The position numbers and the translations under genes are program-made. Positions 8,500-54,918 of a stretch of 64,000 nucleotides of DNA are shown here, in pieces. How positions within the stretch are numbered: position 1 is the first letter of the stretch; every line of letters starts with the position of its first letter. This DNA comes from Ligustrum vulgare (lineage: Eukaryota > Streptophyta > Magnoliopsida > Lamiales > Oleaceae). The stretch is from positions 13,096,133 through 13,160,132 of the forward strand of contig OY743187.1 in NCBI GenBank assembly GCA_963555705.1, read 5' to 3'. The notes beneath the pieces were generated by a model that worked only from the letters and a program-made list of their open reading frames with translations, had not been told where the DNA came from and made no database searches.

Positions 8500-8673
8500 C
8501 CTGACGAGAACATTGTTAAATATGATAATGATCGAAGTTGAGAAGTTATTACTTGTAATTTTATGTATTCATGTATTTCAGTGTGTTAACGGTACTTTTT
8601 GATAATTTTTGCACGTTGTTTTTAATGAAAATATGTATGATAATATAATATTTTTCTTCTCAGTATAATTATT

Positions 8674-10416
8674 TTGTGTGTAACCGTATTTCTCTTTGTT
8701 AATGAAGAAATGGACACTTCTGATTTATTGAATGACTCCAAGATCATTGATGGAGATATTTGCTTAGCAGGCAGTGCATCAACAAATATAATACTCAGAA
8801 ATGAGAAATATTTCTTGAATTTGACAATGATGACAACTAATGTGAGTACAGTAATAGGATTTGCACCTATTATTAAAGGATGGGGAAAAACAAATATTGT
8901 ACTAAGTGGAGGAACAAAAATGGCCATCCAAAATGCCTTATTTTCCCCTAAGTCATCTAGGAATCTGCTAAGTTATAAAGATATACGAAGTAACGGGTAC
9001 CATACTGAGACTTCCGAAGAAAATAATAAAGAATATCTTTATATTACTTCTATTGTCCCTGGAAAGAAATGTATACTTGAAAGGTTATCCGCTTTACCTT
9101 CTGGCTTGTACTATACAAAAATTAGTACAATTGAAACAAATGTTATATTATGCAAAAGGTTCAATGAGTAAAGAATTTTATAACTTGGCATGACCGGCTA
9201 GGACATCCCGGGTCAACTATGATGCGAAGAATTATTGAGAATTCAAAAGGACATTCATTGAGTAATCAAAAAATTCTTCATTGTAATGAATTCTCATGTG
9301 CTGCTTGTTCTCAAGGAAAATTGGTCATCAGACCATCATTAACTAAAGTTGGGTATGAATCTTCAATATTTTTGGAACGTATACAGGTGAATTTGTGGGC
9401 CCATTCACCCTCCATGTGGACCATTTCGATATTTTATGGTTTTAATAGACGCATCTACTAGATGGTCACATGTGAGCTTATTATCCACTCGCAACCTGGC
9501 ATTTGCGAGATTACTTGCTCAGATTATTCGTCTACGAGCACAATTTTCGGATTACCCAATTAAGAATATTCGTCTTGATAATGCTAGTGAGTTTACATCT
9601 CAACATTTAATGATTACTGCATATCGATTGGGATAAAGATTGAACATCCGGTTGCTCATGTTCATACTCAAAAATGGTCTGGCAGAATCATTTATTAAAC
9701 GCATCCAATTAATAGCTAGACCATTACTTATGAGAACAAAACTTCATGTATCTGCTTGGGGACATGCTATACTACATGCTGCAGCACTCATACGCATCAA
9801 ACCAACATCTTATCATAAATTCTCCCCATCACAAATGACTTATGGTCAAGAGCCTAATATATCCCATCTAAAAATTTTTGGTTGTACTGTTTACGTACCA
9901 ATAGCCCCACTACAACAAACAAAGATGGGTCATCAAAGAAGACTGGGAATATATATTGGGTTTGAATCTCCTTCTATAATAAAGTATCTTGAACCCAATA
10001 CGAGCGATGTTTTTACTGCACGATTTGCAGACTGCCATTTTCATGAAACTATGTTCCCAGCATTAGGGGGAGAAATTAAACAGCTGGAAAAAGAAATAAC
10101 ATGGAATGTATCAGATTTATCCAAACAAGATCCTCCCGCAAAGCAATGTGAACAAGAAGTTCAAAAGATAATCCACTTGCAAAAGATAGTCAATCAATTT
10201 CCAGATGCATTCACTGACCTAAAAAGAGTGACTAAATTACACATTCCAGCTGAAAATGCTTCAGTCAGAATTGATGTCCCAGAAGGACAAAATAAAGCTA
10301 ATGAGTCTGAGATACGCATGAAGCGTGGTAGACTAATTGGTTCCAAGGATAAAAATCCTCGAAAGAAAAAGGAGCATATAGTTAATAATTACCCCCGAAG
10401 TGGTACAGGTACCTGA
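8674..10416 (+). pseudogene. copia protease-integrase region, broken
   Basis: 8674-9171 resembles copia protease followed by pre-integrase sequence, but the expected DS/TG active-site aspartate is replaced in CLAGSAST, predicting an inactive protease. A GAG-pre-integrase segment (WHDRLGHPGS) follows in another frame near 9180. Integrase catalytic-core residues appear in ASTRWSHVSLLS and RLDNASEFTSQ (9436-9636), and the integrase tail is at 9640-10416 (PLHVSAWGHA-like region, then KIFGCTVYVP). At least three frame changes or stops separate these pieces. Confidence 0.8.
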
Positions 10417-10615
10417 AAATGATGAAAATAAAGAGATCTCGATAAATTATGTCTATACAAGAAAAAGATGGAATCGAGAAGAAACAGTTATCGACAGTAT
10501 TTTTTCATATAATATAGCGCTCGAAATTATTAATGATAGCGAGGATGATGAACCAAAATCCATCGAGGAATGTAAACGAAGAAATGATTGGCTAAAAAGG
10601 AAAAGTGCAATTTAG

Positions 10616-12105
10616 GCATAATTGGATTCATTGGAGAAACGTAAAGTTTTTGGACCTATCGTTCAAACTCCTAAAGGGGTTAATCCTGTAGGATACAAAT
10701 AAGTATTCGTGCGAAAAAGAAATGAGAAAAGAGAAGTCGTGAGATATAAAGCACGACTTGTAGCATAAGGATTTTCGCAAATACCTGGTGTCGATTATGA
10801 AGAAACGTATTCCCTTGTAATGGATGCAATTACATTTCGATATCTAGTTAGTTTGGCAATACATGAAAAACTAGATATGCGCATGATGGATATGGCATGC
10901 TTGACAATGATATCCACATAAAATTCCCGAGGGATTTAAAATGCCTGAAGTATATAATTCGAGACCTCGAGAATTATTTTCAATCAAATTGCAGAGGTCA
11001 TTATATGGATTGAAACAATCTGGCCGCATGTGGTATAATCGCCTTAGTGAATATCTACTGAAAGAATGATTCAAGAATGATCCTATATGCCCTTGCCTTT
11101 TTATAAAGAAGTAAATGAATGGGTTCATAATTATTGCTGTATATGTTGATGACTTAAATATTATTGGAACTCTTGAAGAAATTCCGGAGGCAGTTGAGTA
11201 CTTAAAGTCAGAATTTGAGATGAAAGATCTTGGAAAGACAAAATTCTGTCTCATCTTGGAAATAGAGCATTTATCAAATGGAATTCTTATTCATCAATCA
11301 ACATATACAGAAAAAGTCCTTAAACGATTTTACATGGATAAGACAAATCCATTGAACACACCGATGGTTGTTCGTTCACTCAATGTGGAAAATGACCCAT
11401 TTAAACCTCGAGAAGACAATGAAGAACTTCTTGGTCCTGAAGTACCATATCTTAGTGCTATAGGTGCACTACTATATCTTGCCAATAACACACGACCTGA
11501 TATTGCATTCTCGGTAAGTTTACTAGCAAGGTATAGTTCTTCTCCTACACAAAGACATTGGAATGGTGTTAAACATGTATTGAGGTATCTCCGAGGAACA
11601 ATTGACATGGGTTTGTTTTATTCAAATAAAACTAAACCGAAACTTGTTGGGTATGCTAATGCGGGATATCTATCAGACCCACACACAGCTAAATCTCAAA
11701 CAGATTATTCATTCACGTGTGGAGGTATTGCTATATCATGGAGATCCACAAAGCAAATATTAACTGCTACTTCTTCTAATCATGCTGAACTACTTGCAAT
11801 ACATGAGGCAAGTCGAGAATGTGTATGATTGAAATCAATGACTCAGCATATAATGGAGACTTGTGGTCTCTCTTCAGGAAAAAGGAAATCCAACAATTTT
11901 GTATGAAGACAATACCTCGTGTATAGCTCAACTAAAGGGAGGTTTGATTAAAGATGACAGAACGAAACATATTTCACCGAAACTCTTCTTCACACATGAT
12001 CTTGACAAGAGTGGTGAAATTGATGTTCGACAAATTCGTTCAAATGATAATCTAACAGATAGTTCACAAAATCTTTACCTACTGCAACATTTGAAAAATT
12101 GGTAA
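10616..12105 (+). pseudogene. copia reverse transcriptase and RNase H, broken
   Basis: Reverse transcriptase begins near 10630 (VFGPIVQTPKGV, then YKARLVA followed by a stop, then GFSQIPGVDYEETYS). The catalytic YVDD lies in the frame at 11115-11828 (AVYVDDLNIIGT). The same frame runs through the RT thumb (YLRGTIDMG) into RNase H, ending at 11828. The C-terminal RNase H piece (ILYEDNTSCIAQLKGG) is at 11863-12105. Stops and frameshifts abound upstream of 11115. Confidence 0.85.
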
Positions 12106-20338: not shown

Positions 20339-20891
20339 TGATTTGATCCGAAGTAGGAGACCAAAGGAGAAGTCGACCTATCGGCAATGCGACAGTGAGA
20401 TTTTAATTTAATTACGTTTTTAAATTATTTACTTCCATATTTTGGGCCCAAATTAGCGGCTAACCCTAGTTAGGTCAATTGTTACATTATATTACTTTGT
20501 ATTTCATTATGGAACAGAACTTTGAATTATTGAATGAATGTGAGATTTTCTCTCTCTAAAAGGATGATTCCTTTTTTTCTTGTTCTTGAAGAACAATTCA
20601 TAGAACTTATCAAATATTTTCTTGAATATTTGTGGCGTTCCAATCAGAAACTTATCAAGGAATTTGGCATCCCTTGTGGCGTCTCGAAAACCTCGGTTCT
20701 TCAATCCGCATCGTCAATTATTGCGTCGTGATTGTTGGGTCCAGGTCCTATCGTCAATCTTATTTTAATTTTCGTCTATTTATTCGTATTCTTGTTAATT
20801 TTCTTGTCAGATCTGATTTAGATCTTTCCTAGGGTTTTAGATTTCGTTATTTCCGCGTTTTCGACGAGATTCCCCGACTGGGATCGCGTCA
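20339..20891 (+). repeat. 5' LTR of gypsy element (deleted form)
   Basis: 553 bp. It matches the 3' LTR except for one missing block of about 323 bp after GCGACAGTGA, the block that carries the ACGGCCGT array in the 3' LTR. Confidence 0.88.
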
Positions 20892-20893
20892 TC

Positions 20894-20905
20894 TGGTATC
20901 AGAGC
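20894..20905 (+). promoter_or_regulatory. Primer-binding site (tRNA-Met)
   Basis: TGGTATCAGAGC, the standard plant initiator-tRNA-Met primer complement, two bases after the 5' LTR end. Confidence 0.9.
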
Positions 20906-21176: not shown

Positions 21177-22793
21177 ATGTCTGATAGAGAGGTTTCCACA
21201 TCTTCATCTTCTATTGGAGACAGAAAACAGCTCAGGGGTATGAATAAAAATGATGAACAGAGTAATAATGATATTGCAGCAATGAGGGCACAATTTGAGA
21301 GGTTTATGGCTCAAATGGAGAATCGAGGTGCAGAACGTGAACAAAAACCTCGGAATCAATCTCATGATGGTTCTCGGGTTAGGAGAGGTAATAGGCGTGA
21401 ATGTCATGCTAGGTACGGAGATGGGATGGATGAAGGTCCATTAAAGTGAAAGGAGACATCAAAACGGGAGAGTAGTGATCATGTTCACAAAAGGAGGGAG
21501 GAAACGACAACCAAAGGTAAAAATAATTCTAATTCCAAGCCTCTTAAGGATAAAAATATTAAGTGCTTTAAATGTTTGGAACGGGGTCACATTGCACTTG
21601 ATTGTCCACGTAAGAAGGATAGGTGTGATAGTAAAGGGGCTAATAGTGTTGTGGTGGATGAGTCAATTATTGATAGGCATGCTCTTAGCATTAAGCGTAA
21701 GGCGAATGTTTTGGAAAATGTGGATGGGCAAAGGGATAATATTTTTCGCACTAGATGCTTAGTGGATGAAAAAGTTTGTAGCTTGGTGATTGATGGGGGA
21801 AGTTGTACTAATGTAGTCAGTACAATGTTGGTGAAAAAATTAGGCTTACCTTTAATGAAACATCCAACGCCTTATAAATTACAGTGGTTAACCGAGTCGG
21901 GAGAACTTAAGGTGAACAAGCAGGTTAATATTAAATTCACCATTGGGGGTTATAGAGATGAGGTGGTATGTGATGTGGTCCCTATGAATGTTGGGCATAT
22001 TTTATTGGGAAGACCATGGCAACATGATAGGAGAGTGGTGCATGATGGCTTCAAAAACCGATATTCTTTCGTGAAGGGTGGAAAAAGGATCACTCTTGCT
22101 CCGCTAACGCCTAAAGAGGTCCAAGAGGATCAATTGAAAATAAAGAGAGAGTTTGAGGGAAAAAATAAGAGCGTTGAGGCCACGACCTCAGAAAAAGGAG
22201 AGGGTGTGAAAATTGAAAACAAGAAAGTTGAGGCCACGACCTCAGAAAAATGTGAGCTTGAGAGTACAAAGAAAAAGAAAAGAGAGTCCACCACAAAAAT
22301 GAGCTTATTTGCATTCGCTAACACATCCCTCCCTAGTTTGGCTAATTCTGTTTTGCAGGTACTACAATCAAATTACAAAGCTAAGGCCAAAAGAAAAATT
22401 AATTGCCGGACAGGACAACCCCGAAGTATGATGCATAGAACAAAACAGGAACAGGTCTCTCGAACCAACGAAAGCAAGAGACACGTAAAGGAGAGGCCAT
22501 ATACGGATTCGAGGTCGAATCCTTTCCAAGAAAGGGTGGATGATGTGATCCGAAGTAGGAGACCAAAGGAGAAGTCGACCTATCGGCAATGCGACAGTGA
22601 TCTACGCGGGAAACAGCACAAGTTTCATGCTGGAGTCGAGCCGAGAAGGCGAAAGGATCAAGCCGAGACAAATAATCAAGAAATTGTGCAGAAAGACACT
22701 TACGGCCGTAAGAAGAAACTTCACGGCCGTAAAACTCAAGTTCACGGCCGTAAAACTCAAATCCTCACGGCCGTGACTCTGCCTTGGGTTTGA
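21177..22793 (+). pseudogene. gypsy gag-protease, one in-frame stop
   Basis: One reading frame broken by a single TGA at 21447-21449. The N-terminal part (90 codons) is charged, gag-like sequence. After the stop comes a CCHC knuckle (CFKCLERGHIALDC, from about 21561), then a retropepsin-like domain with the variant active site VIDGGSCTN (about 21787) and HILLGRPW (about 21997), typical of plant Ty3/gypsy polyproteins. A Lys/Glu-rich tail with a duplicated VEATTSEK segment follows. The frame then runs into the 3' LTR and stops at 22793, so reverse transcriptase is absent rather than frameshifted. Confidence 0.85.
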
Positions 22794-23416
22794 ATAAGGA
22801 ATTGCAGAATTTTATAGTTACGGCCGTAATGATAATGGTCACGGCCGTAAGACTTATGCAGAAGGACATTTACGGCCGTAAATCAGTTCTCACGGCCGTA
22901 ACATCTAATTTTCCAGATTTCGCGTATTTTAATTTAATTCCGTTTTTAAATTATTTACTTCCATATTTTGGGCCCAAATTAGCGACTAACCCTAGTTAGG
23001 TCAATTGTTACATTATATTACTTTGTATTTCATTATGGAACAGAACTTTGAATTATTGAATGAATGTGAGATTTTCTCTCTCTAAAAGGAGGATTCCTTT
23101 TTTCTTGTTCTTGAAGAACAATTCATAGAACTTATAAAATATTTTCTTGAATATTTGTGGCGTTCCAATCAGAAACTTATCAAGGAATTTTGCATCCCTT
23201 GTGGCGTCTCGAAAACCTCGGTTCTTCAATCCGCATCGTCAATTCTTGCGTCGTGATTGTTGGGTCCAGGTCCTATCGTCAATCTTATTTTAATTTTCGT
23301 CTATTTATTCGTGTTCTTGTTAATTTTCTTGTCAGATCTGATTTAGATCTTTCCTAGGGTTTTAGATTTCGTTATTTCCGCTTTTTCGACGAGATTCCCC
23401 GACTGGGATCGCGTCA
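22541..23416 (+). repeat. 3' LTR of gypsy element (full form)
   Basis: 876 bp, ending GCGTCA directly before the TAATT duplication. It includes eight copies of ACGGCCGT at 22702-22899. Confidence 0.9.
22702..22899 (+). repeat. Array of eight ACGGCCGT palindromes
   Basis: Copies start at 22702, 22723, 22744, 22767, 22820, 22841, 22872 and 22892, mostly about 21 bp apart. Each contains the CG-rich palindrome CGGCCG. The array is inside the 3' LTR and missing from the 5' LTR. Confidence 0.92.
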
Positions 23417-23547
23417 TAATTCATTGAAACATTGCAAAAGTTCTTTAGTTTTCAAGTTCTTTTTTGCTTTGTTTGAACTTGATTAAAAACTTGATCAATC
23501 CTACAAACATATTTACTATTTTCAACAATCTCAAACTATATTTTTCA

Positions 23548-24479: not shown

Positions 24480-24834
24480 ACTGTTATGCGGCTGTAGGAC
24501 GGCGATGGCGCTGAAAATTGGTAATTTGGGATGAGGGTGGGGTGGTGGTTGGGGGTCTAGTTGGAGAGAAGGTGAGAGTAAAGAGAGAGATGATTGTGAA
24601 GAGAGGTTGAAATGAGGAATTAGAGTTTGTATGATTTTTATATTTATATTTATTTCTATTTTATAATATCGTTTTGAAAATTTGAATTATAGCCTAATTT
24701 TAGAATAAATAACTTGAAATTTTGAAATTTAAATTAATAGTCGAAACTTAGTGGTTGATGTAATTTTCCCAAGAGATATTTATATGTGTATCTCTCTGTA
24801 TGCTGATATGTGTGTCAGAGACAGACCAAAGGCA
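24480..24834. other. Spacer left of the pararetrovirus-bearing element
   Basis: G-rich then A+T-rich sequence with no gene or repeat recognised. It ends with the 9-bp ATTCCCATG (24835-24843). Confidence 0.5.
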
Positions 24835-25037
24835 ATTCCCATGGAATAATTCTAGACTTACTAACAAATAACTACTAACAACTTACTAACATAAATTATA
24901 CCCATTTTACCCTTTTAGCTAAAAATATAACTAATATCTTATTTCACATATTATCTTATTAAATTTAACACATAATAAATTCTAAAAATTTAATTACTTT
25001 AAAATTTTTATTACTTATTTCATAATTAAAAAATATT

Positions 25038-25307
25038 ATGCCTGTTTATGATCCTCATATACTTCACGAAAAAAGAAAAAATTTAATTAGAAGCTTACAT
25101 AGAGAATATTTAGAATTAGAAAGATTAGGAAGAAACTTAAATACTGATCCTATTGCTATAGAAAAATATAAAGAAATTAAAATGCTAGTTTTACAACATA
25201 ATGAATATTTAAGATTAAAAGAAGAAAACTTGATAAGACAAGAAGATAATAGATATATGGATGAATTTGAAGAAAGATTTTTAAGAAGAGTAAGACAAAG
25301 ATTATAA
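25038..25307 (+). CDS. Small ORF upstream of the viral primer site, function unknown
   Basis: 89 residues, highly charged and predicted helical (Arg, Glu and Leu rich; ERFLRRVRQRL at the end). It starts at an ATG preceded by A+T-rich sequence and ends 42 bp before the primer-binding site. Small ORFs near the leader and primer site are common in caulimovirids (for example CaMV ORF VII), but I see no sequence signature that assigns it. The frame is intact. Confidence 0.5.
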   Translation: MPVYDPHILHEKRKNLIRSLHREYLELERLGRNLNTDPIAIEKYKEIKMLVLQHNEYLRLKEENLIRQEDNRYMDEFEERFLRRVRQRL

Positions 25308-25349
25308 TTCCGCAAAATAAAAATTTCACTTTCACGATCCAACTCACAG

Positions 25350-25361
25350 TGGTATCAGAGC
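25350..25361 (+). promoter_or_regulatory. Pararetroviral primer-binding site (tRNA-Met)
   Basis: TGGTATCAGAGC, the tRNA-Met complement used for minus-strand priming in Caulimoviridae. There is no LTR next to it, which separates this locus from the retrotransposons in the window. It lies 33 bp before the ATG of the next ORF. Confidence 0.85.
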
Positions 25362-25393
25362 TAGTAGTTATACTTAAAAATATATTTAGAAAA

Positions 25394-26056
25394 ATGTCTA
25401 AAAAACTACCAATAATCGAACCTAGAGTATATAATTATAAATCTAAAGATTTACCAAATAATAGTCATTGGCCGTTAATAACTGAAACATATGGAAAATT
25501 TATACCATTTATACTATTAGGAGAAGGAGGATTTGGTGAACATAAACAATTAAACTGGACAAATTTATTTTTACTAAATAAATTAGGAATAAGTTTAGAT
25601 AAAACTACAGAACAAAATTTAGAACAAGCAAAAAATCCAGAACAAGTTCAAGAAATTATCAATAATTTACCATTAGAAATAAGACAAATGATAGAAATAA
25701 CTAATGATTATAAGGATATAAACAAAAATATACCAACACAAATATTAGAAGTAAAGCAATATGTAAATAACCTATCAAAACAATTAATAACCTTAGAAAA
25801 CCAAATTAAGCAAATAACTGATAAAATAAATAAAATAGGAAATATGGTAGGAGTATATGAAAACCCAATAGAAATTATAGAGCAAAAAACTATTATAAAA
25901 CAAATAAATATGATAAGAACAATTAAAGAAGAAGAAATAGGGAAAAATGATTTACATAAAAAAATAGATAATATACAACAAAATATTGGAATTATAAACC
26001 AAAATATAACAAAAATATATGATGTATATCTCATTAATAGAAAAAGAAAATTATAA
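25394..26056 (+). CDS. Viral ORF with C-terminal coiled coil, unknown role
   Basis: 220 residues from ATG 25394; upstream in-frame sequence only covers the primer site. The N-terminal half includes FILLGEGGFGEHKQLNWTNL. The C-terminal half (about residues 105-210) is rich in Ile, Asn, Lys and Gln with heptad-like spacing, suggesting a coiled coil. By position and character it could be equivalent to the small virion-associated or transmission-factor proteins of caulimovirids, but no diagnostic motif is visible. It overlaps the next ORF by 38 nt, a usual arrangement for polycistronic pararetroviral RNA. The frame is intact. Confidence 0.6.
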   Translation: MSKKLPIIEPRVYNYKSKDLPNNSHWPLITETYGKFIPFILLGEGGFGEHKQLNWTNLFLLNKLGISLDKTTEQNLEQAKNPEQVQEIINNLPLEIRQMIEITNDYKDINKNIPTQILEVKQYVNNLSKQLITLENQIKQITDKINKIGNMVGVYENPIEIIEQKTIIKQINMIRTIKEEEIGKNDLHKKIDNIQQNIGIINQNITKIYDVYLINRKRKL

Positions 26057-27566
26057 CTTATTACCTATTGAACAAGAAGAAGAATGGGAAGAAATTCCTG
26101 AAGATGAAGAAATTTATGAATTAGAAGAACATGAAGTAATAAATACAATAATGGAATTAGAATCTTCAGAAGAAAGTGAATCTAATGAATCTAGTGAAGA
26201 AGAATATTTATATATAAATATGATTAGACATATTAGTGAAGAAGGTACATCTAAAGAATATGAATATCAATTAGAAGAAAATGAAGAACAACTAAATGAA
26301 AGATTAATATTTAATCCTAAAATGTATGAGAAGATCTTAAAATCAAAATTAGATGTAGAACCAAAAGAAATATTTAATTTACCATTTTGGCAGAAAAATA
26401 AAGAAATAGCATATGTAGCAAGAAACCATAGTCACCCTATAGACATAAGAGATACTACAGGAAATACATTAATACCAATAATAAATGAAGAAATTATAAG
26501 ACAAGAAATAAACCTATTGAATCCTGAACTAAAAGGAAAAATAAAGAACATATATTTAGGAGCTGTACAAATTATAGCAAAAGCCTATTTTAGAGAAGGA
26601 ATAGATACACCTATAGAATTTTATATTATGGATGATAGAATTGTAAGTTCAGTACAAGATGCTCTAATAGGAATTGTAACAGGAAACTTAATGTACCAAA
26701 AAGTAAAATTTACAATAAGACCAAATTTCAGCATAAGTATGGGAGAACAAAATAAAAATAAAGCCTTAACATTATATTACAGGTTAAGAGGGATAGATAT
26801 GGAACCAGGAAGTAAAACTATAAGTTTAACTATTAGAACAATATATGCTTTTACTAGTAAACATGAAGTAAAAATTAAGAATGCTACAAGAACACATATA
26901 ATAGAACCCATATTTCAGAATTTATTGGAATACAAACCAGCTAAAGAAAATCCAAGAATGACAATACCAGAAGATATAGAAATAGATTTCAATCAAGCTA
27001 GAAGATTAGTAAATATGGATAAACCACAAATAGAATTTGGAAGAAGATCAATTAGCCTAAGAAGAAATACTAGTACAAGATCATTACCTGAAATAGAAAA
27101 TAGAAATGATTCAGAAAAACAAATAATGACAAAAATACATAGAAAGATACCAAGAATGAATCTATCTAAAAGAAATGAGACAAAACAATTTGAAGTTATG
27201 ATAGAAATTAGAATAAATGGAGAATGGAAAGAGCAAAAAGTATTAATAGATACTGGAGCAACTGTATCTCATATAAAAGAAAACATAATAGGAGACTTAG
27301 AACTTAAAGTAACGAATAATTTAATTCAAATACAAGATTACTTTGGAAATATTCATCCCATGGATACTTATGTAGAATTACCAATAAGAATAAATAAAAG
27401 AAATGAAATAATCATAAACATGTACGTAGAACATACAGGAAAGGTAAATACGGAATTACTATTAGGAACAGACTTCTTAGAGCAAGTAAAACCATATTAC
27501 ATAAAAGATGATAGAATGCTATTAACAATACAAAATGAAAATCTAGTTATACCAAGGTTATTATGA
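26019..27566 (+). CDS. Pararetroviral movement protein fused to an aspartic-protease-like domain
   Basis: 515 residues, intact. Residues about 18-65 are strongly acidic. Residues about 175-310 match the 30K-superfamily movement protein of caulimovirids (IYLGAVQIIAKAYF, GIDTPI, then DDR), which opens plasmodesmata for cell-to-cell spread. After a basic linker, a retropepsin-like domain occupies about 395-510 with LIDTGATVSH (Asp411) and LLLGTDFL. In badnavirus-type polyproteins a coat protein lies between movement protein and protease. Here only about 85 linker residues separate them. The stop overlaps the next ATG as ATGA (27563-27566), favouring termination-reinitiation. Confidence 0.85.
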   Translation: MMYISLIEKENYNLLPIEQEEEWEEIPEDEEIYELEEHEVINTIMELESSEESESNESSEEEYLYINMIRHISEEGTSKEYEYQLEENEEQLNERLIFNPKMYEKILKSKLDVEPKEIFNLPFWQKNKEIAYVARNHSHPIDIRDTTGNTLIPIINEEIIRQEINLLNPELKGKIKNIYLGAVQIIAKAYFREGIDTPIEFYIMDDRIVSSVQDALIGIVTGNLMYQKVKFTIRPNFSISMGEQNKNKALTLYYRLRGIDMEPGSKTISLTIRTIYAFTSKHEVKIKNATRTHIIEPIFQNLLEYKPAKENPRMTIPEDIEIDFNQARRLVNMDKPQIEFGRRSISLRRNTSTRSLPEIENRNDSEKQIMTKIHRKIPRMNLSKRNETKQFEVMIEIRINGEWKEQKVLIDTGATVSHIKENIIGDLELKVTNNLIQIQDYFGNIHPMDTYVELPIRINKRNEIIINMYVEHTGKVNTELLLGTDFLEQVKPYYIKDDRMLLTIQNENLVIPRLL

Positions 27567-28135
27567 ATAAAATACAAGGAGGAAGAGAACATATTTATAT
27601 ACTAACCAAAATGAATTACAATGGATATCTTAGCAGAAATTATCATGCATTGTTTGATACAGGAGCATCATCCTGTTTATTTAAAGAATATGTATTACCC
27701 CCAGAAATGTGGAGTAATAAAAAAGATAATGAAGAAAGAGTAATACTTGCAGGATTTGATGGAAGCACAAATCTAATAACTAAAGTAGCAAGGAATGTTA
27801 AAATACAAATAGGAAAATATGAATTACAAATACCTTATGTATATCAATTTGATGATATGCCAGGGGATATATTAATAGGAAATAACTTCATAAAACAATA
27901 TTATCCAATAACTATTGATGAAAAAGTTATACTTTTATCTACCCCTTGCCACCATATAGCAATTGCAATAAGAATTAATGATCCTTACTGTAGAGAAAAA
28001 ATGCCTCATATAGCAGCTCAGCGTGGTGAGGATAGACAAAAATTAACACAAACAACACAATTTATGCCTAATAAAAATAGAATAAATCTAGTAGAAGAAC
28101 ATTTTGATCAAATTGTAATAAAAAATATTACATAA
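27563..28135 (+). CDS. Pararetroviral aspartic protease domain ORF
   Basis: 190 residues. ALFDTGASSC (Asp32) and DILIGNNFIKQYYP (about 107-120) are the two active-site and flap-side signatures of caulimovirid aspartic proteases, with LPPEMW between. It ends with a TAA at 28133-28135. The reading frame then continues directly, without shift, into the reverse-transcriptase ORF, so the two were probably one polyprotein and the stop is either a mutation or a readthrough point. It is the second protease-like domain in a row, following the one at the end of the previous ORF. Confidence 0.85.
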   Translation: MNKIQGGREHIYILTKMNYNGYLSRNYHALFDTGASSCLFKEYVLPPEMWSNKKDNEERVILAGFDGSTNLITKVARNVKIQIGKYELQIPYVYQFDDMPGDILIGNNFIKQYYPITIDEKVILLSTPCHHIAIAIRINDPYCREKMPHIAAQRGEDRQKLTQTTQFMPNKNRINLVEEHFDQIVIKNIT

Positions 28136-28165
28136 AAATTATTAAAATTATCAGGAGATAATCCT

Positions 28166-29521
28166 TTGAAAAAATGGTACATAAATAAGCCTATGGCAGA
28201 AATTATACTAAAAGATGATACTAAGATTATTAGTGTAAAACCAATTAAACATACACCAAAAGAATTACCTGAATTTGAAATGCATATAAAAGAAATGCTA
28301 GAAAAGAAATTTATTAGAGAATCTAATAGTAAACATAGTAGTCCAGCCTTCATTGTAATAAAACATTCAGAACAAAAAAGAGGAAAATCTAGAATGGTAA
28401 TTAATTATAAAAGGTTAAACACTTATACAAAAGAATTAAAATATCCAATACCAAACCAACAAGTATTATTTAATCAAATTAGAGGAAAGAAATATTTCTC
28501 TAAATTTGATCTCAAATCAGGATTTTATCATATTATGTTAACTGAAGAATCTAGACATTTAACGGCTTTTACGGTACCACAAGGATTTTATGAATGGAAT
28601 GTATTACCTTTTGGATTTAAAAATAGTCCAGGAGAATTCCAAAGGTACATGGATAAAATATTTAAAGATTATTATCATTTTATTACAGTATATATTGATG
28701 ATGTTCTTATTTACTCTGAAACCAGACAAGACCACTTAAAACATCTAAATATTTTTATAGATATTGTAAGGAATAATGGAATTATATTATCAGCTACAAA
28801 AATGGAGATAGCTAAAGAAAAGGTAGAATTTTTGGGATCTATAATAAGCCAAGAAGGAATAAAACTCCAAAAACATATTGGTACAAAAATACAAGAATTT
28901 GACAATCATATAAAAGATAAAACACAATTACAAAGCTTTTTAGGACTTGTAAATCAGACTAGGAAATATGTACCTAACTTAGCAAAACATTTAATCCCAT
29001 TACAAAAAAGATTAAAAGGAAAAACTAGATGGACACCATGGTCTAAAGATGAAGAAGAAGAAGTACAAAAAATTAAAGACATTTGTAAAGATTTACCAGA
29101 ATTAGAATTACCCAAAAAAGAATGTGATTGGATTATAGAAACCGATGCATGTGAAACAGCATGGGGAGCAGTACTTAAATATATTTATCCAAATGAGGAT
29201 GAGGAAAGGATTGCACAGTTTACTAGTGGCAGTTTTACTCAAACTCAAACTAATTATCATATAAATGAAAAAGAATTATTAGCTGTAAAGTTTGCTATTA
29301 AAAAATTTGAATTATTTATTGTTACTACAAAATTCAAAATTAGAACAGATAATACACAAGTTAAATATTGGTTAACTAAAGAAATTGATCCAACTATTGC
29401 AAATAAAAGGTTAATTAGATGGCAAGTAGAACTTAGTCATTATGATTTTGAAATTATTCATATTAAGGGTACTGACAATGTTATTGCAGATTATTTATCA
29501 AGACATGGAAGACATACTTAA
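28166..29521 (+). CDS. Pararetroviral reverse transcriptase and RNase H
   Basis: 451 residues from the first ATG after the stop at 28133. Homologous sequence already begins at 28136 in the same frame. Reverse transcriptase motifs: SRMVINYKRLN, FSKFDLKSGFYHI, LPFGFKNSP and the catalytic YIDDVL (about residues 176-181). RNase H follows with ETDACETAWGAVL, the HINEKELLAV glutamate region, RTDNTQ and DNVIADYLSR. No integrase follows, as expected for Caulimoviridae and unlike Ty3 elements. Function: copies pregenomic RNA to DNA. The frame is open throughout, indicating a fairly recent arrival. Confidence 0.92.
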   Translation: MKKWYINKPMAEIILKDDTKIISVKPIKHTPKELPEFEMHIKEMLEKKFIRESNSKHSSPAFIVIKHSEQKRGKSRMVINYKRLNTYTKELKYPIPNQQVLFNQIRGKKYFSKFDLKSGFYHIMLTEESRHLTAFTVPQGFYEWNVLPFGFKNSPGEFQRYMDKIFKDYYHFITVYIDDVLIYSETRQDHLKHLNIFIDIVRNNGIILSATKMEIAKEKVEFLGSIISQEGIKLQKHIGTKIQEFDNHIKDKTQLQSFLGLVNQTRKYVPNLAKHLIPLQKRLKGKTRWTPWSKDEEEEVQKIKDICKDLPELELPKKECDWIIETDACETAWGAVLKYIYPNEDEERIAQFTSGSFTQTQTNYHINEKELLAVKFAIKKFELFIVTTKFKIRTDNTQVKYWLTKEIDPTIANKRLIRWQVELSHYDFEIIHIKGTDNVIADYLSRHGRHT

Positions 29522-30608
29522 GAAAGTAGAAGAAATTAACTTGGCCATGGGTCAAATGAATATCAACTATTCAAATCTATTCAACCATGTGAATACTTGC
29601 ATGGCGCAGATTGTACAAATTAACAGTGAACTAGCCTTTTTCAAGTCAAGGGTTAATTCTCTTGAGGAAATGTACAAAGGAGGATCCCAATCCTCTCCAG
29701 TGAAGAATTTATCTGTAGGACTTCCTATTGAGGAAGAAGTATCTAATGTATCAATTATTGGAAGTTCATCTTCCAAAGCCATTGGCAAAACTATTGAACC
29801 ATCTAAAGAAACTTTTTTAGAAGCTGCGAAGAAACCAGCAGTAGTAACAAAGGAACTATCAGAAAGGGAGAAAGTTATGAAGAAACTAGAGACATTCTTG
29901 AAGTATGTGGAGTATCTAAACAAGAGGACAAAAGAAGGAGAATGGCTAAGGACAATTAGCCATCAAAAAATCAATAAAGCAATTATTTTTCCAGGAGCAG
30001 AGCCAAGAACAGCCAGGGGACTGTTTGACCAAGGACTTATTCAGTGCATCTACCCTAGCAAGGATATGAAGGAAATATCATTATTACCTAATTCTATCAA
30101 GGCAGCAGTGAAAACATATTTTGGAATTACCAAAGCTGAAAAGATCTATGTCAGGATTTACTCAGCCATTCCAGAATTTATTGATGAAGAATTTCTAAGG
30201 GCAGAACATATTGTAAAACTCGGAGTAACTAGCAAAGCTATCCTTTCAGAACCAGAAATAAAACCATTTAACAAAGAGGAACAGATAAAAGCTATTCCAG
30301 AAAAAAGGGCATTGGGATTTAGAGTAATGTACACTGAATTAAGGGATACCCTTACACAAACTAATGTTTGGGTATATGAATCTAATGATGACAAATTATT
30401 GATATACAACATTGCAAGAATTAATCAGGTTAATTGTCAATTATGGAAATTAAGAGAATATGCTGAGAATATACTTGCCAGCAATTTGGATCTTAGCAAA
30501 GAAGCCTATGAATATCTACATCACTTAATGGAGGTAGAAACAGGTCACAAATGTAATAATTGTGGGGACCTACTCAACTATAATGAAGATGAAGCATACC
30601 TTGTCTGA
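29505..30608 (+). CDS. Transactivator/viroplasmin-like protein (CaMV ORF VI type)
   Basis: 367 residues from ATG 29505, which overlaps the end of the reverse-transcriptase ORF by 17 nt. Residues about 150-230 hold the signature of caulimovirus transactivators: FPGAEPRTARGL, GLIQCIYPSKD, and YVRIYSAIPEF. In CaMV this protein forms inclusion bodies and lets ribosomes reinitiate on the polycistronic RNA, which fits the overlapping ORFs here. The N-terminus is coiled-coil-like. The C-terminus has a lone CNNCG pair, not a CCHC knuckle. Base composition is less A-rich than the upstream ORFs. It is followed by the promoter region. The frame is intact. Confidence 0.85.
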   Translation: MEDILKKVEEINLAMGQMNINYSNLFNHVNTCMAQIVQINSELAFFKSRVNSLEEMYKGGSQSSPVKNLSVGLPIEEEVSNVSIIGSSSSKAIGKTIEPSKETFLEAAKKPAVVTKELSEREKVMKKLETFLKYVEYLNKRTKEGEWLRTISHQKINKAIIFPGAEPRTARGLFDQGLIQCIYPSKDMKEISLLPNSIKAAVKTYFGITKAEKIYVRIYSAIPEFIDEEFLRAEHIVKLGVTSKAILSEPEIKPFNKEEQIKAIPEKRALGFRVMYTELRDTLTQTNVWVYESNDDKLLIYNIARINQVNCQLWKLREYAENILASNLDLSKEAYEYLHHLMEVETGHKCNNCGDLLNYNEDEAYLV

Positions 30609-30769
30609 ACACGAATTATTCAAGGCATGGGGGTTCAGACCCATGTGAAACTTTAGAAAAGCAGCAAAAATTATTGTAACTTTAGCTTTACTTTATCTAC
30701 TTTAAATCTTAGCCAAGTATGTAAAAGATAGGGAATATTTTCTTGTTTCCCAACTTTGCTTTTTCCAAC

Positions 30770-30777
30770 TATAAAAG
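30770..30777 (+). promoter_or_regulatory. Pararetroviral promoter TATA box
   Basis: TATAAAAG, about 160 bp after the transactivator stop, the position of the 35S-type promoter in caulimoviruses. Predicted transcription start near 30800. Confidence 0.7.
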
Positions 30778-30827
30778 GAGGAGTCTCTCCTCATTGTAGG
30801 CATCCGAAAATCATATGAGTTTTCAGC

Positions 30828-30833
30828 AATAAA
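30828..30833 (+). terminator. Pararetroviral polyadenylation signal
   Basis: AATAAA lies about 58 bp after the TATA box. In caulimovirids the signal sits downstream of the start site, which creates the terminally redundant RNA needed for strand transfer. Confidence 0.6.
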
Positions 30834-31091
30834 AATCTATATTCTCTATCTATTGTCTTTCTTTTCATTCCTAGTTCAAGATTTTCTTTCATCAAACAAA
30901 TTCAGAAACAGTTAACAGAAGGTATGAGTAACTAAACTTCACATAGATATATATGAAGCTATAAATAGTTAGTAATACTCTATTTATTTATGAGTCCATA
31001 AGTTTATTCTTTATAAAACTTTTGTTAAAAGAGTACATCCAGAGGTAGGAAACGAAACTGGATTGTGCTGAACCTCTTTGAAGTTTTTGTT

Positions 31092-31194
31092 TAAGTATTA
31101 AACAGAAAGTGTTGGAGTAAGTCTTTCGAGCATCCTTTAATGCATAAGTCTTTCGAGCAGCAACGATCTTCTATGAAGATGTGTTTAATACTTA
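31092..31194 (+). promoter_or_regulatory. Leader hairpin with internal direct repeat
   Basis: TAAGTATTAAACA (31092-31104) and TGTTTAATACTTA (31182-31194) are perfect 13-bp inverted repeats. The enclosed sequence has a 15-bp direct repeat TAAGTCTTTCGAGCA at 31118 and 31145. A large stem-loop in the leader is a general feature of caulimovirid pregenomic RNA. Confidence 0.6.
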
Positions 31195-31485
31195 GATAAA
31201 TAACTGAAGAGTATTTGGTCAAAAATCTTTTAAAATCAGATTTACAAAGAAGCGTGATGGACCCATAGATAGAAAGAAGTATTATTGATTATTTATGGTG
31301 GATTATATATCGTCTTTTTTATTGATATTATACAATTACTGTTATTATAGTCTTAAATTTATCATTTTGCTTATGATATCTCTTACATGTTTTTATATAT
31401 TGAAAATTTGTCTTTACTATTCCTAGAATTAACTATTGGAAAAGGATTTGAATTAATAGCTTAAATTTAAATAGTTTTATAATTT

Positions 31486-31821
31486 ATGAATTTAGAACAT
31501 TTAATAGAACTAAATCCTTCAGAAGTAAACGACTTTAAGTATTTAAGAGAAGAAACAATTAAACAATTAGAAATTGTAAGAGAAGATTTAGGAAGATTTT
31601 ATGATTTATTAGACTACGCAATAAAAGAACCCACATTCACAGATTTTTCACAATTTACTAGAATTATAGTAAATAGAGGAAGAATAATTAGTGATTTAGA
31701 GAAAAAAATTGAAGAATTAAATATAATTATTGAAGAAAAGAGTTTAACATATAATAGTATATATTACGCATTTTATGTAAACAATAAATTTAGAGATATA
31801 GACATAACATCAGAAAATTAA
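31486..31821 (+). CDS. Small viral ORF after the leader, unknown function
   Basis: 111 residues, A-rich codons like the other viral ORFs, predicted helical with a coiled-coil-like segment (ISDLEKKIEELNIIIEEK). It is the first long ORF after the promoter and leader, so it would be translated first if the RNA started near 30800. It shows no evident similarity to the 89-residue ORF at 25038 and matches no family I recognise. Its stop is about 60 bp from the right inverted repeat. Confidence 0.5.
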   Translation: MNLEHLIELNPSEVNDFKYLREETIKQLEIVREDLGRFYDLLDYAIKEPTFTDFSQFTRIIVNRGRIISDLEKKIEELNIIIEEKSLTYNSIYYAFYVNNKFRDIDITSEN

Positions 31822-31938
31822 AAGAATCTAACTAGAAGGATAACATAGTAATTGAACATTCAAAATTTTTGTCTTTTAGTCGTTAGTACAACTGTTAGTA
31901 CAGTTTTGTTAGTAAGTGTAGCAAGGTCCATTCCCATG

Positions 31939-33039
31939 AGGCTTCTCCTTGGGCCTAGTATTTTTTTGGGGGCCAAAATATATTTTTTATGTATATTTTA
32001 AAATGCAAAAAATCAATTTTAGTCTATACCAAATAGGGGCTTAATTTTCCCTTTTATTATTGAATTTGAAATTAATAAATCTAGTTATCAAATTATATAA
32101 AAAAATAAAAAGAATTTGAATATATACAACGATGGAGCCAATTTCTAAAAGTGACCCCAAATCGTCGAAATGCAACTCATATATATATATATATATATAT
32201 ATATAAACACCTCGAAAGTTGGAGACGAAATCAACTTTTATAATAGAAAGAATCATGAACCAATACACATCAAAATGTGAAGCAAGCATCATACATGAAA
32301 TTTGGGAATAGATGTAGAAACACCGAAATTATGTCGCAAAGAATGGCTTGAACACGATTGATAGCGTTGTCCTAAAATTATATTTGCCTCGATGGAGATA
32401 CTTAAAGGTTTTATGCAAATGGCTTTAACGGATTTAATTCAAGCCTGCAACCGAGTACATTTAAAGTACAACAAAACTCGAAAGAGGAACAAGAGAACAT
32501 ATAGAGTGAGCATTATTTTAGTGGAAGTGATCTCTCATCTTATATATAATAAAAGGTTGTTCTCACTTGTTTTTTATGATCAACATAACATCACATATAC
32601 AGTAATTAATTCACTATATACGAAACACAACGCTTGGACAAAATGACACAATATTTTGGTACAAAAAAACCATATTGAGCACCAAAAGGTGCCTCTCGGA
32701 CTTCATCTTGCGATCACAAGGTTTCGTGCCTTGCGATTGTAAGGCACGATAGAATTGTATTATGTTTAAATTACTGTATGGCTTGAGTTCGCAACAAGCC
32801 ATGACGTTGTGATCATCTAATTTCTTATCGAGTCTTATCATTTTTTGTCATATTTTCGATGTCTCTTCGCATTGATTTAATTCCGTACTTTCATCCATAA
32901 TCTTTACAAATATTTGAACAATTTGAAACAAATTTCCAACAATACGTTTGAAAATGTGTATATTATCAAGCACCGTATCCTCCACTTGCGCAAGTGGAAA
33001 TCATGTGGGTCGCCGAAATCTAGACGCTTGTCAAACCCT
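31939..33039. other. Spacer, no gene seen
   Basis: A+T-rich, with a (TA)n run at 32179-32205. Short open frames here lack recognisable domains. Confidence 0.5.
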
Positions 33040-54906: not shown

Positions 54907-54918
54907 TGGTATCAGAGC
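54907..54918 (+). promoter_or_regulatory. Primer-binding site (tRNA-Met)
   Basis: TGGTATCAGAGC next to the 5' LTR end. Confidence 0.85.

Follow-up and report, generated by a model that had tools for sequence, protein, structure and literature searches.

A 64,000-nucleotide stretch of the Ligustrum vulgare genome (GenBank assembly GCA_963555705.1, contig OY743187.1, positions 13,096,133 to 13,160,132 of the forward strand; hereafter the window) contains a 7086-bp viral unit at 24844-31929. It is flanked on both sides by the 9-mer ATTCCCATG, and its terminal inverted repeats resemble the ends of Mutator-like elements (MULEs). The genes are those of a pararetrovirus of the family Caulimoviridae (Table 1), with a reverse transcriptase (RT)-RNase H that falls within the family, a 30K movement protein, an A3 protease and a tRNA-Met primer site, the last located with the standard primer-site motif. 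The movement-protein open reading frame (ORF; 26019-27566) also encodes a retropepsin-like domain, which is additional to the A3 protease of the next ORF; in the unnamed relative P0002, Pfam detects the movement protein alone. Scans of seven ORFs of the window copy and of a coat-region piece from one other copy, the remaining copies having only been sampled, gave no match to an integrase or transposase, and in lacking an integrase the ORFs scanned agree with the family. A short ORF stands directly before a leader stem, as in caulimovirid leaders that use ribosome shunting, and none of 20 shuffled versions of the region 30835-31480 folds as well as the region itself (z = -3.35).

Table 1. Features of the viral unit and its borders, in window coordinates; pN/pS, ratio of nonsynonymous to synonymous polymorphism.
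Feature	Position	Strand	Remarks
Left copy of 9-bp target-site duplication, ATTCCCATG	24835..24843	.	
Left terminal inverted repeat	24844..24893	+	GAATAATTCTA, like MULE ends, then three ACTAAC motifs
ORF, 89 aa, no assigned function	25038..25307	+	pN/pS 0.21, n=30 sequences including the window
Primer binding site	25350..25361	+	exact 12/12-nt match to plant initiator-tRNA-Met
Structural polyprotein frame, N-terminal part	25394..26056	+	220 aa remaining after deletion; pN/pS 0.155, n=29
Deletion point	26024..26025	.	1387 nt including coat protein lost; short repeat ATATGATG at junction
Movement protein (PF01107) with C-terminal retropepsin-like domain	26019..27566	+	domain match
Caulimovirus-type aspartic protease A3 (PF02160)	27563..28135	+	domain match
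Reverse transcriptase and RNase H	28166..29521	+	pN/pS 0.159, n=11 sequences
ORF, 388 aa, presumably at translational transactivator position, by gene order of relatives	29442..30608	+	33% identical to one unnamed database protein
TATAAA, presumed pregenomic RNA promoter	30770..30775	+	faces out of right end
AATAAA, presumed poly(A) signal	30828..30833	+	shortly past RNA start
Short ORF ATGAGTAACTAA	30924..30935	+	directly before leader hairpin, shunt-like arrangement
Long leader hairpin	30945..31310 (approximate, by eye)	+	folded region 30835-31480
ORF, 111 aa, no assigned function	31486..31821	+	pN/pS 0.43, n=40 sequences
Right terminal inverted repeat	31880..31929	-	inward reading GGACCTTGCTACACTTACTAAC; positions 7-18 match one MULE end 11/12
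Right copy of 9-bp target-site duplication, ATTCCCATG	31930..31938	.	

A first-pass annotation, made from the sequence of the window, had described the viral gene set as nearly intact, which does not hold for this copy: its coat-protein region is deleted at about 26024 and is present in other copies. At exactly that position 28 of 29 other copies depart from the window sequence, L016 departing at 25592. Two of them were read there, and both contain 1387 nt absent from the window, with a CCHC knuckle and one frame that stays open into the movement protein; the caulimovirus coat domain PF22909 was detected in the one copy scanned (E 2.9e-9). Splicing was rejected as the cause of the gap, the lost stretch not beginning with GT and ATATGATG standing at the break (read by eye). 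In a tree of 29 RT sequences, the element is sister to Solendovirus and Cavemovirus together and lies inside neither (fork 88/80, not starred), and the set of 13 that holds it is supported at 97/95. The RT-RNase H is 50-52% identical to those of tobacco vein clearing virus, sweet potato vein clearing virus and Bacopa monnieri virus 3 and 48% identical to that of cassava vein mosaic virus; the highest identity in the RT comparison is 52-53%. By its RT the element is a caulimovirid that branches deeply, with moderate support, as the sister lineage of Solendovirus plus Cavemovirus. It shares with those genera the coat protein, movement protein, A3 protease, tRNA-Met site and leader hairpin, and differs from them in its constant ends, target duplications and extra retropepsin-like domain. 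No relatives were confirmed in IMG/VR.

The 9-mer ATTCCCATG occurs in the window at 24835-24843 and 31930-31938 and nowhere else, exactly at both borders as first annotated. Taken alone, a repeated 9-mer is weak evidence, as 18 of 100 shuffles of the window contain two copies somewhere. The termini offer more. The shared terminal sequence and the three ACTAAC hexamers per end that the first reading had noted are borne out, with CTTACTAACAAA present at each terminus in opposite orientations and the hexamers starting at 17, 31 and 42 from the left border and at 17, 31 and 43 from the right. The inverted arms 24852-24880 and 31893-31921 (29 nt, 83% complementary) are equidistant from the two borders and rank first of 70 inverted pairs within 24700-32100; two other pairs there are slightly longer but only 73-74% complementary. 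In register, the left and right termini agree at 30 of the 50 outermost positions, a level reached in none of 100000 shuffles. No long direct repeat links the two ends among the 20 of 28 repeat families listed; a long terminal repeat (LTR) retrotransposon was rejected because long terminal direct repeats were not seen.

The window copy belongs to a large, young family. When the 1.385-Gb genome was searched with the left 166 bp and the right 159 bp of the element, 565 and 734 first-look candidates were obtained, respectively, and the 40 scored for each query all match, at 97-100%. Pairing of left-end and right-end coordinates by eye gives at least 57 distinct copies. Because copies were sampled through the likeness of one end, those lacking both ends could not enter the sample. 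The first-pass annotation had proposed a search for further copies with identical borders and different 9-bp duplications, and had held that viral blocks with other borders would speak against it. Copies of the first kind were found, and those of the second were not encountered in this end-selected sample: the right end is the same in each of the 39 other copies selected through their left end, and the left end is the same in each of the five examined that were selected through their right end. Both flanks were read in 43 non-window copies, and a target duplication is present in 42. It is an exact 9 bp in 39, an exact 10 bp in two (L007 and L018, read by eye) and a 9-mer with eight of nine bases repeated in one (L019). 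With that of the window included, there are 40 exact 9-bp duplications, every one different. Those of L012 (a TA repeat) and L016 (a run of A) carry little information, and L102, whose right flank is outside the data set, was excluded from every duplication count. The target 9-mers are AT-rich (16% GC in 26 of them). The chance of one exact 9-bp border match is about 1e-5, and a chance 9-mer was rejected on the count of duplicated copies.

Copy length is 8420-8481 bp in 36 of 38 cases, the remaining two being 7645 and 7938 bp, and the mean difference between copies is 1.6-1.7%. Copy L009 (with L051 and L093) spans about 11.6 kb and has a normal 9-bp duplication; the additional ~3.2 kb within it probably came from a later nested insertion. 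No second unit adjoins the 29 left borders or lies within the 40 right-side stretches, and none of 29 joined flanks revealed a spanning empty site among the sequences sampled.

Caulimovirid integration has been called speculative in a review of the field, with break repair and the machinery of LTR retrotransposons named as routes and hijacking of a transposon integrase suggested (PMC10377300). Ordinary endogenous copies, as described there, are often flanked by TA repeats and are tandem or rearranged, and a 2026 study speaks of filler DNA (PMC13308828). The family described here likewise consists of viral genes resident in a plant genome at high copy, whereas its members are single units with transposon borders. 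If they were nevertheless ordinary endogenous insertions, made by break repair or by an LTR-retrotransposon integrase in keeping with the accepted view for the family (PMC10377300), the borders would be a coincidence or a shared hot spot. Constant borders, exact 9-bp duplications that differ in sequence at 39 of 43 loci, the small chance of even one such match and the lack of tandem units in the sample render that explanation scarcely credible, and LTR elements mostly leave 4-6 bp (PMC12440569).

Candidate partners are abundant in the same genome. The MULE transposase profile PF10551 gave 4690 candidates, of which 150 were scored; all 150 exceed the cut-off, many within open frames of >700 aa. 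Twenty-four MULEs were sampled, four as 8-kb stretches and 20 as 1.2 kb only, where an absent end means little. Three of the four 8-kb stretches begin and end with the motif CAATAAT[T/G]CTA. Of these, L106 combines a perfect repeat of 58 nt with the 9-bp duplication AAATTAAAA, L103 has a 91-nt repeat (90%) and the 9-bp duplication GAACATATT, and in L105 a duplication is not clear. The fourth, L104, is without the motif and has the unlike ends CAAAAATGCTGG and CGGTTTTGCTGG between 9-bp duplication copies GTGTAAATA (the duplications of L103 and L104 were read by eye). Hence outer bases vary in MULEs too, as they do at the right end of the virus. The 20 further MULE 5' stretches contain the motif facing inward in six, as one-sided matches, and facing outward in none; two of the six start with G, like the virus. 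Two of these stretches, L110 and L116, have in common an unusual GC-richer sequence after the motif CAATAATGCTA.

In register, the left viral end GAATAATTCTAGACTTAC matches the L103 end at 15 of 18 positions, which none of 20000 random 18-mers from the window equals, and the right viral end GGACCTTGCTACACTTAC matches the L105 end at 12 of 18, a score that 71 of 20000 equal or exceed. By this likeness, the outer ends of the virus belong to the resident MULE class. The search for resident MULEs with the same terminal repeat, proposed by the first annotation, thus succeeded for the outer 18 bp but not, in the four 8-kb stretches, for the ACTAAC array, and the inner sites of the virus differ from those of these MULEs. 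The viral unit has terminal inverted repeats at fixed borders, a target duplication of about 9 bp and an end sequence shared over the outer 18 bp with transposase-bearing MULEs, and its scanned ORFs encode no PF10551 transposase; as a MULE it would be at most non-autonomous. Target duplications of 8 or 9 bp have been described for an active mosquito MULE (PMC5225508), and in ISCth4 variation is concentrated in the outer 14 bp (PMC7780238). Alternatively, the ends could come from a different superfamily of transposases that makes duplications of 8-10 bp, in which case their likeness to MULE ends would be convergent. The 12/18 score of the right end and the array's absence from the four long MULE stretches would fit this, whereas the left end agrees at 15/18 in register and MULEs of the same genome produce 9-bp duplications, and we regard such an origin as very improbable.

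The coding sequence is under purifying selection. In addition to the pN/pS values in Table 1, parts of the 388-aa ORF give 0.08-0.11 (2-4 sequences), and noncoding control stretches differ by 1.1-1.5% on average (11-37 sequences each). Neither stop nor frameshift interrupts 27 of 30 copies of the 89-aa ORF, 20 of 29 of the 220-aa frame and 32 of 40 of the 111-aa ORF, and 10 of 11 RT-RNase H pieces are without a stop. Synonymous and nonsynonymous variants number 21 and 8, respectively, when present in at least three copies and 47 and 83 when seen once (p = 0.0007), and the once-seen variants have a pN/pS of 0.41. Trees of the left and right parts of the copies conflict (28 sequences); in the same sequences 169 of 224 left-by-right site pairs fail the four-gamete test, compared with 23 of 120 within the left part and 34 of 91 within the right. 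This conflict is simply explained by template switching during reverse transcription.

A transcript would start at the promoter and pass through the leader, the 111-aa ORF and the right repeat, and beyond the junction through the left repeat, the 89-aa ORF, the primer site, the structural polyprotein, the polymerase and the 388-aa ORF. The succession of leader, promoter and ORFs would be continuous only when the ends are joined, and a single unit could yield a reverse-transcribable RNA only in that form. As the ORFs on both sides of the junction are constrained (pN/pS 0.43 and 0.21), the joined form was probably the target of selection.

These observations bear on the possibility of a single capture, in which a non-autonomous MULE took up an entire viral genome and then spread purely as a DNA transposon, its viral genes being passengers, as in a Pack-MULE with a viral load. 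Ends and target duplications of the resident-MULE kind and the lack of a transposase match in the scanned ORFs are what such a capture would produce. We nevertheless think it unlikely, since only 8 of the 29 variants found in three or more copies change amino acids, even once-seen variants show a reduced pN/pS, the sampled ORF copies are mostly open, left and right parts conflict as they would after recombination, and the ends split the viral transcription unit between two selected ORFs, which a chance capture need not do. The first annotation had left two options, a MULE that captured a virus and a viral lineage that gained transposon ends. The second fits better than the first, on the grounds that shared variants are depleted of amino-acid changes, that left and right parts conflict and that the transcription unit would cross the end junction.

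The Mutator-type reading itself is supported: the family comprises numerous independent insertions whose borders are the same and whose 9-bp duplications differ, and resident MULEs resemble it in their ends and duplications. We consider it likely that a caulimovirid circle carries head-to-head Mutator-type ends and that a resident MULE transposase, acting in trans, integrates the viral genome. The lineage, in which no integration enzyme was detected, probably borrows resident transposon machinery for entry into the chromosome. In the circle, the repeats would stand head to head between the 111-aa and 89-aa ORFs. A resident MULE transposase would bind them on the circular viral DNA, cut the circle at the end junction and paste the linear viral genome into AT-rich chromosomal sites. 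In the integrated state the promoter would face out of the right end, severed from the other genes, leaving the provirus silent, and excision or recombination might rejoin the ends, whereupon replication would resume by transcription and reverse transcription. A bolder extension, to which we give a little less than an even chance, is that the lineage, having evolved Mutator ends within its circular genome, has acquired a regular proviral stage. The resident MULE transposase would then act in trans as its integrase, the transcriptionally split provirus would stay silent, and excision by the transposase would restore the replicating circle, such that the virus would alternate between class II transposon and infectious pararetrovirus. 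Both the circle as substrate and integration as a part of the life cycle are what we infer.

The notion of a circular substrate has a parallel in bacteria. IS256 transposases are prokaryotic kin of MULE transposases, form circular intermediates with joined ends, read bipartite ends and prefer AT-rich targets (PMC7780238). A viral circle with head-to-head ends would be shaped like such an intermediate, without the spacer, and for this reason insertion of the circle by a resident MULE transposase in trans seems to us the most likely route. The IS256 family differs in being bacterial, in having its own transposase, in its 8-bp duplications and in circles whose ends are separated by a spacer of 5-7 or 19 bp (same source).

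Several points weigh against integration of a viral circle by a MULE transposase. Copy L096/L097 has normal ends and no target duplication in its flanks. The likeness of the right end to a MULE end is moderate, and no MULE with an ACTAAC array was found, ACTTACTAAC being absent from all four 8-kb MULE stretches. Circular forms of the virus were not observed. Gene conversion or recurrent mutation could mimic or add to the recombination signal, and selection and recombination could both date from a viral phase that preceded a DNA-only expansion. Finally, Pfam gave no credible match for the 388-aa protein, a PDB sequence search gave no useful result and its AlphaFold model is unusable (mean predicted local distance difference test score 36.5), which leaves some room for an unrecognised viral recombinase.

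This last point can be developed into an explanation of its own, in which the repeats are processed by an unrecognised DNA-cutting enzyme of the virus itself, encoded for example in the 388-aa or the 220-aa frame. That the 388-aa protein has neither a credible domain nor a usable model, and that the sole relative found is unnamed, would allow for this. The ORF sits, however, where relatives presumably have their transactivator, its relative is also without a Pfam match, and an own enzyme would make the likeness of the ends to resident MULEs coincidental; we judge it improbable.

The lack of a duplication in L096/L097 could reflect recombination between two insertions. Elsewhere in the window, two 83-bp pieces that are 98.8% alike (20810-20892 and 23335-23417) enclose an ORF at 21450-22793 with a CCHC knuckle and an aspartic protease and without a polymerase match, and a tRNA-Met primer site follows the first piece at 20894; the whole may be a short LTR element that lacks pol. 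At 54907-54918 there is a second exact tRNA-Met primer site outside the viral unit, probably that of a further LTR element. Pieces of a Copia-type polyprotein (Pol_BBD, SH3 and RVT_2) lie in separate frames at 8644-11828, and a tetraspanin coding stretch of a host gene (PF00335, 3.5e-29) is on the minus strand at 2144-2671.

Among known systems, MULEs and Pack-MULEs have in common with the viral unit their terminal inverted repeats, 9-bp duplications and, for the resident MULEs, similar outer terminal bases. In contrast to them, the viral element is without a transposase match, contains a selected virus genome and has short (~50 bp) repeats with an ACTAAC array. Teratorn reportedly unites a piggyBac-like transposon with a herpesvirus. 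As a virus and a DNA transposon fused into one mobile unit, it is the nearest precedent in kind (PMC10175614), whereas here the virus is reverse-transcribing and a transposase was not found in the scanned ORFs. The literature searched, part of it available only in excerpt, contained no description of terminal inverted repeats together with target duplications on a caulimovirid.

The borders of this family point directly to integration of the DNA-transposon type, with a likely source of transposase in the same genome. The family offers a case in which the use of a transposon in trans by a virus can be tested, and a further kind of virus-transposon hybrid beside Teratorn. The same question arises for other recent expansions, such as that in pepper, for which 951 identical Solendovirus RT sequences have been reported (PMC9794742).

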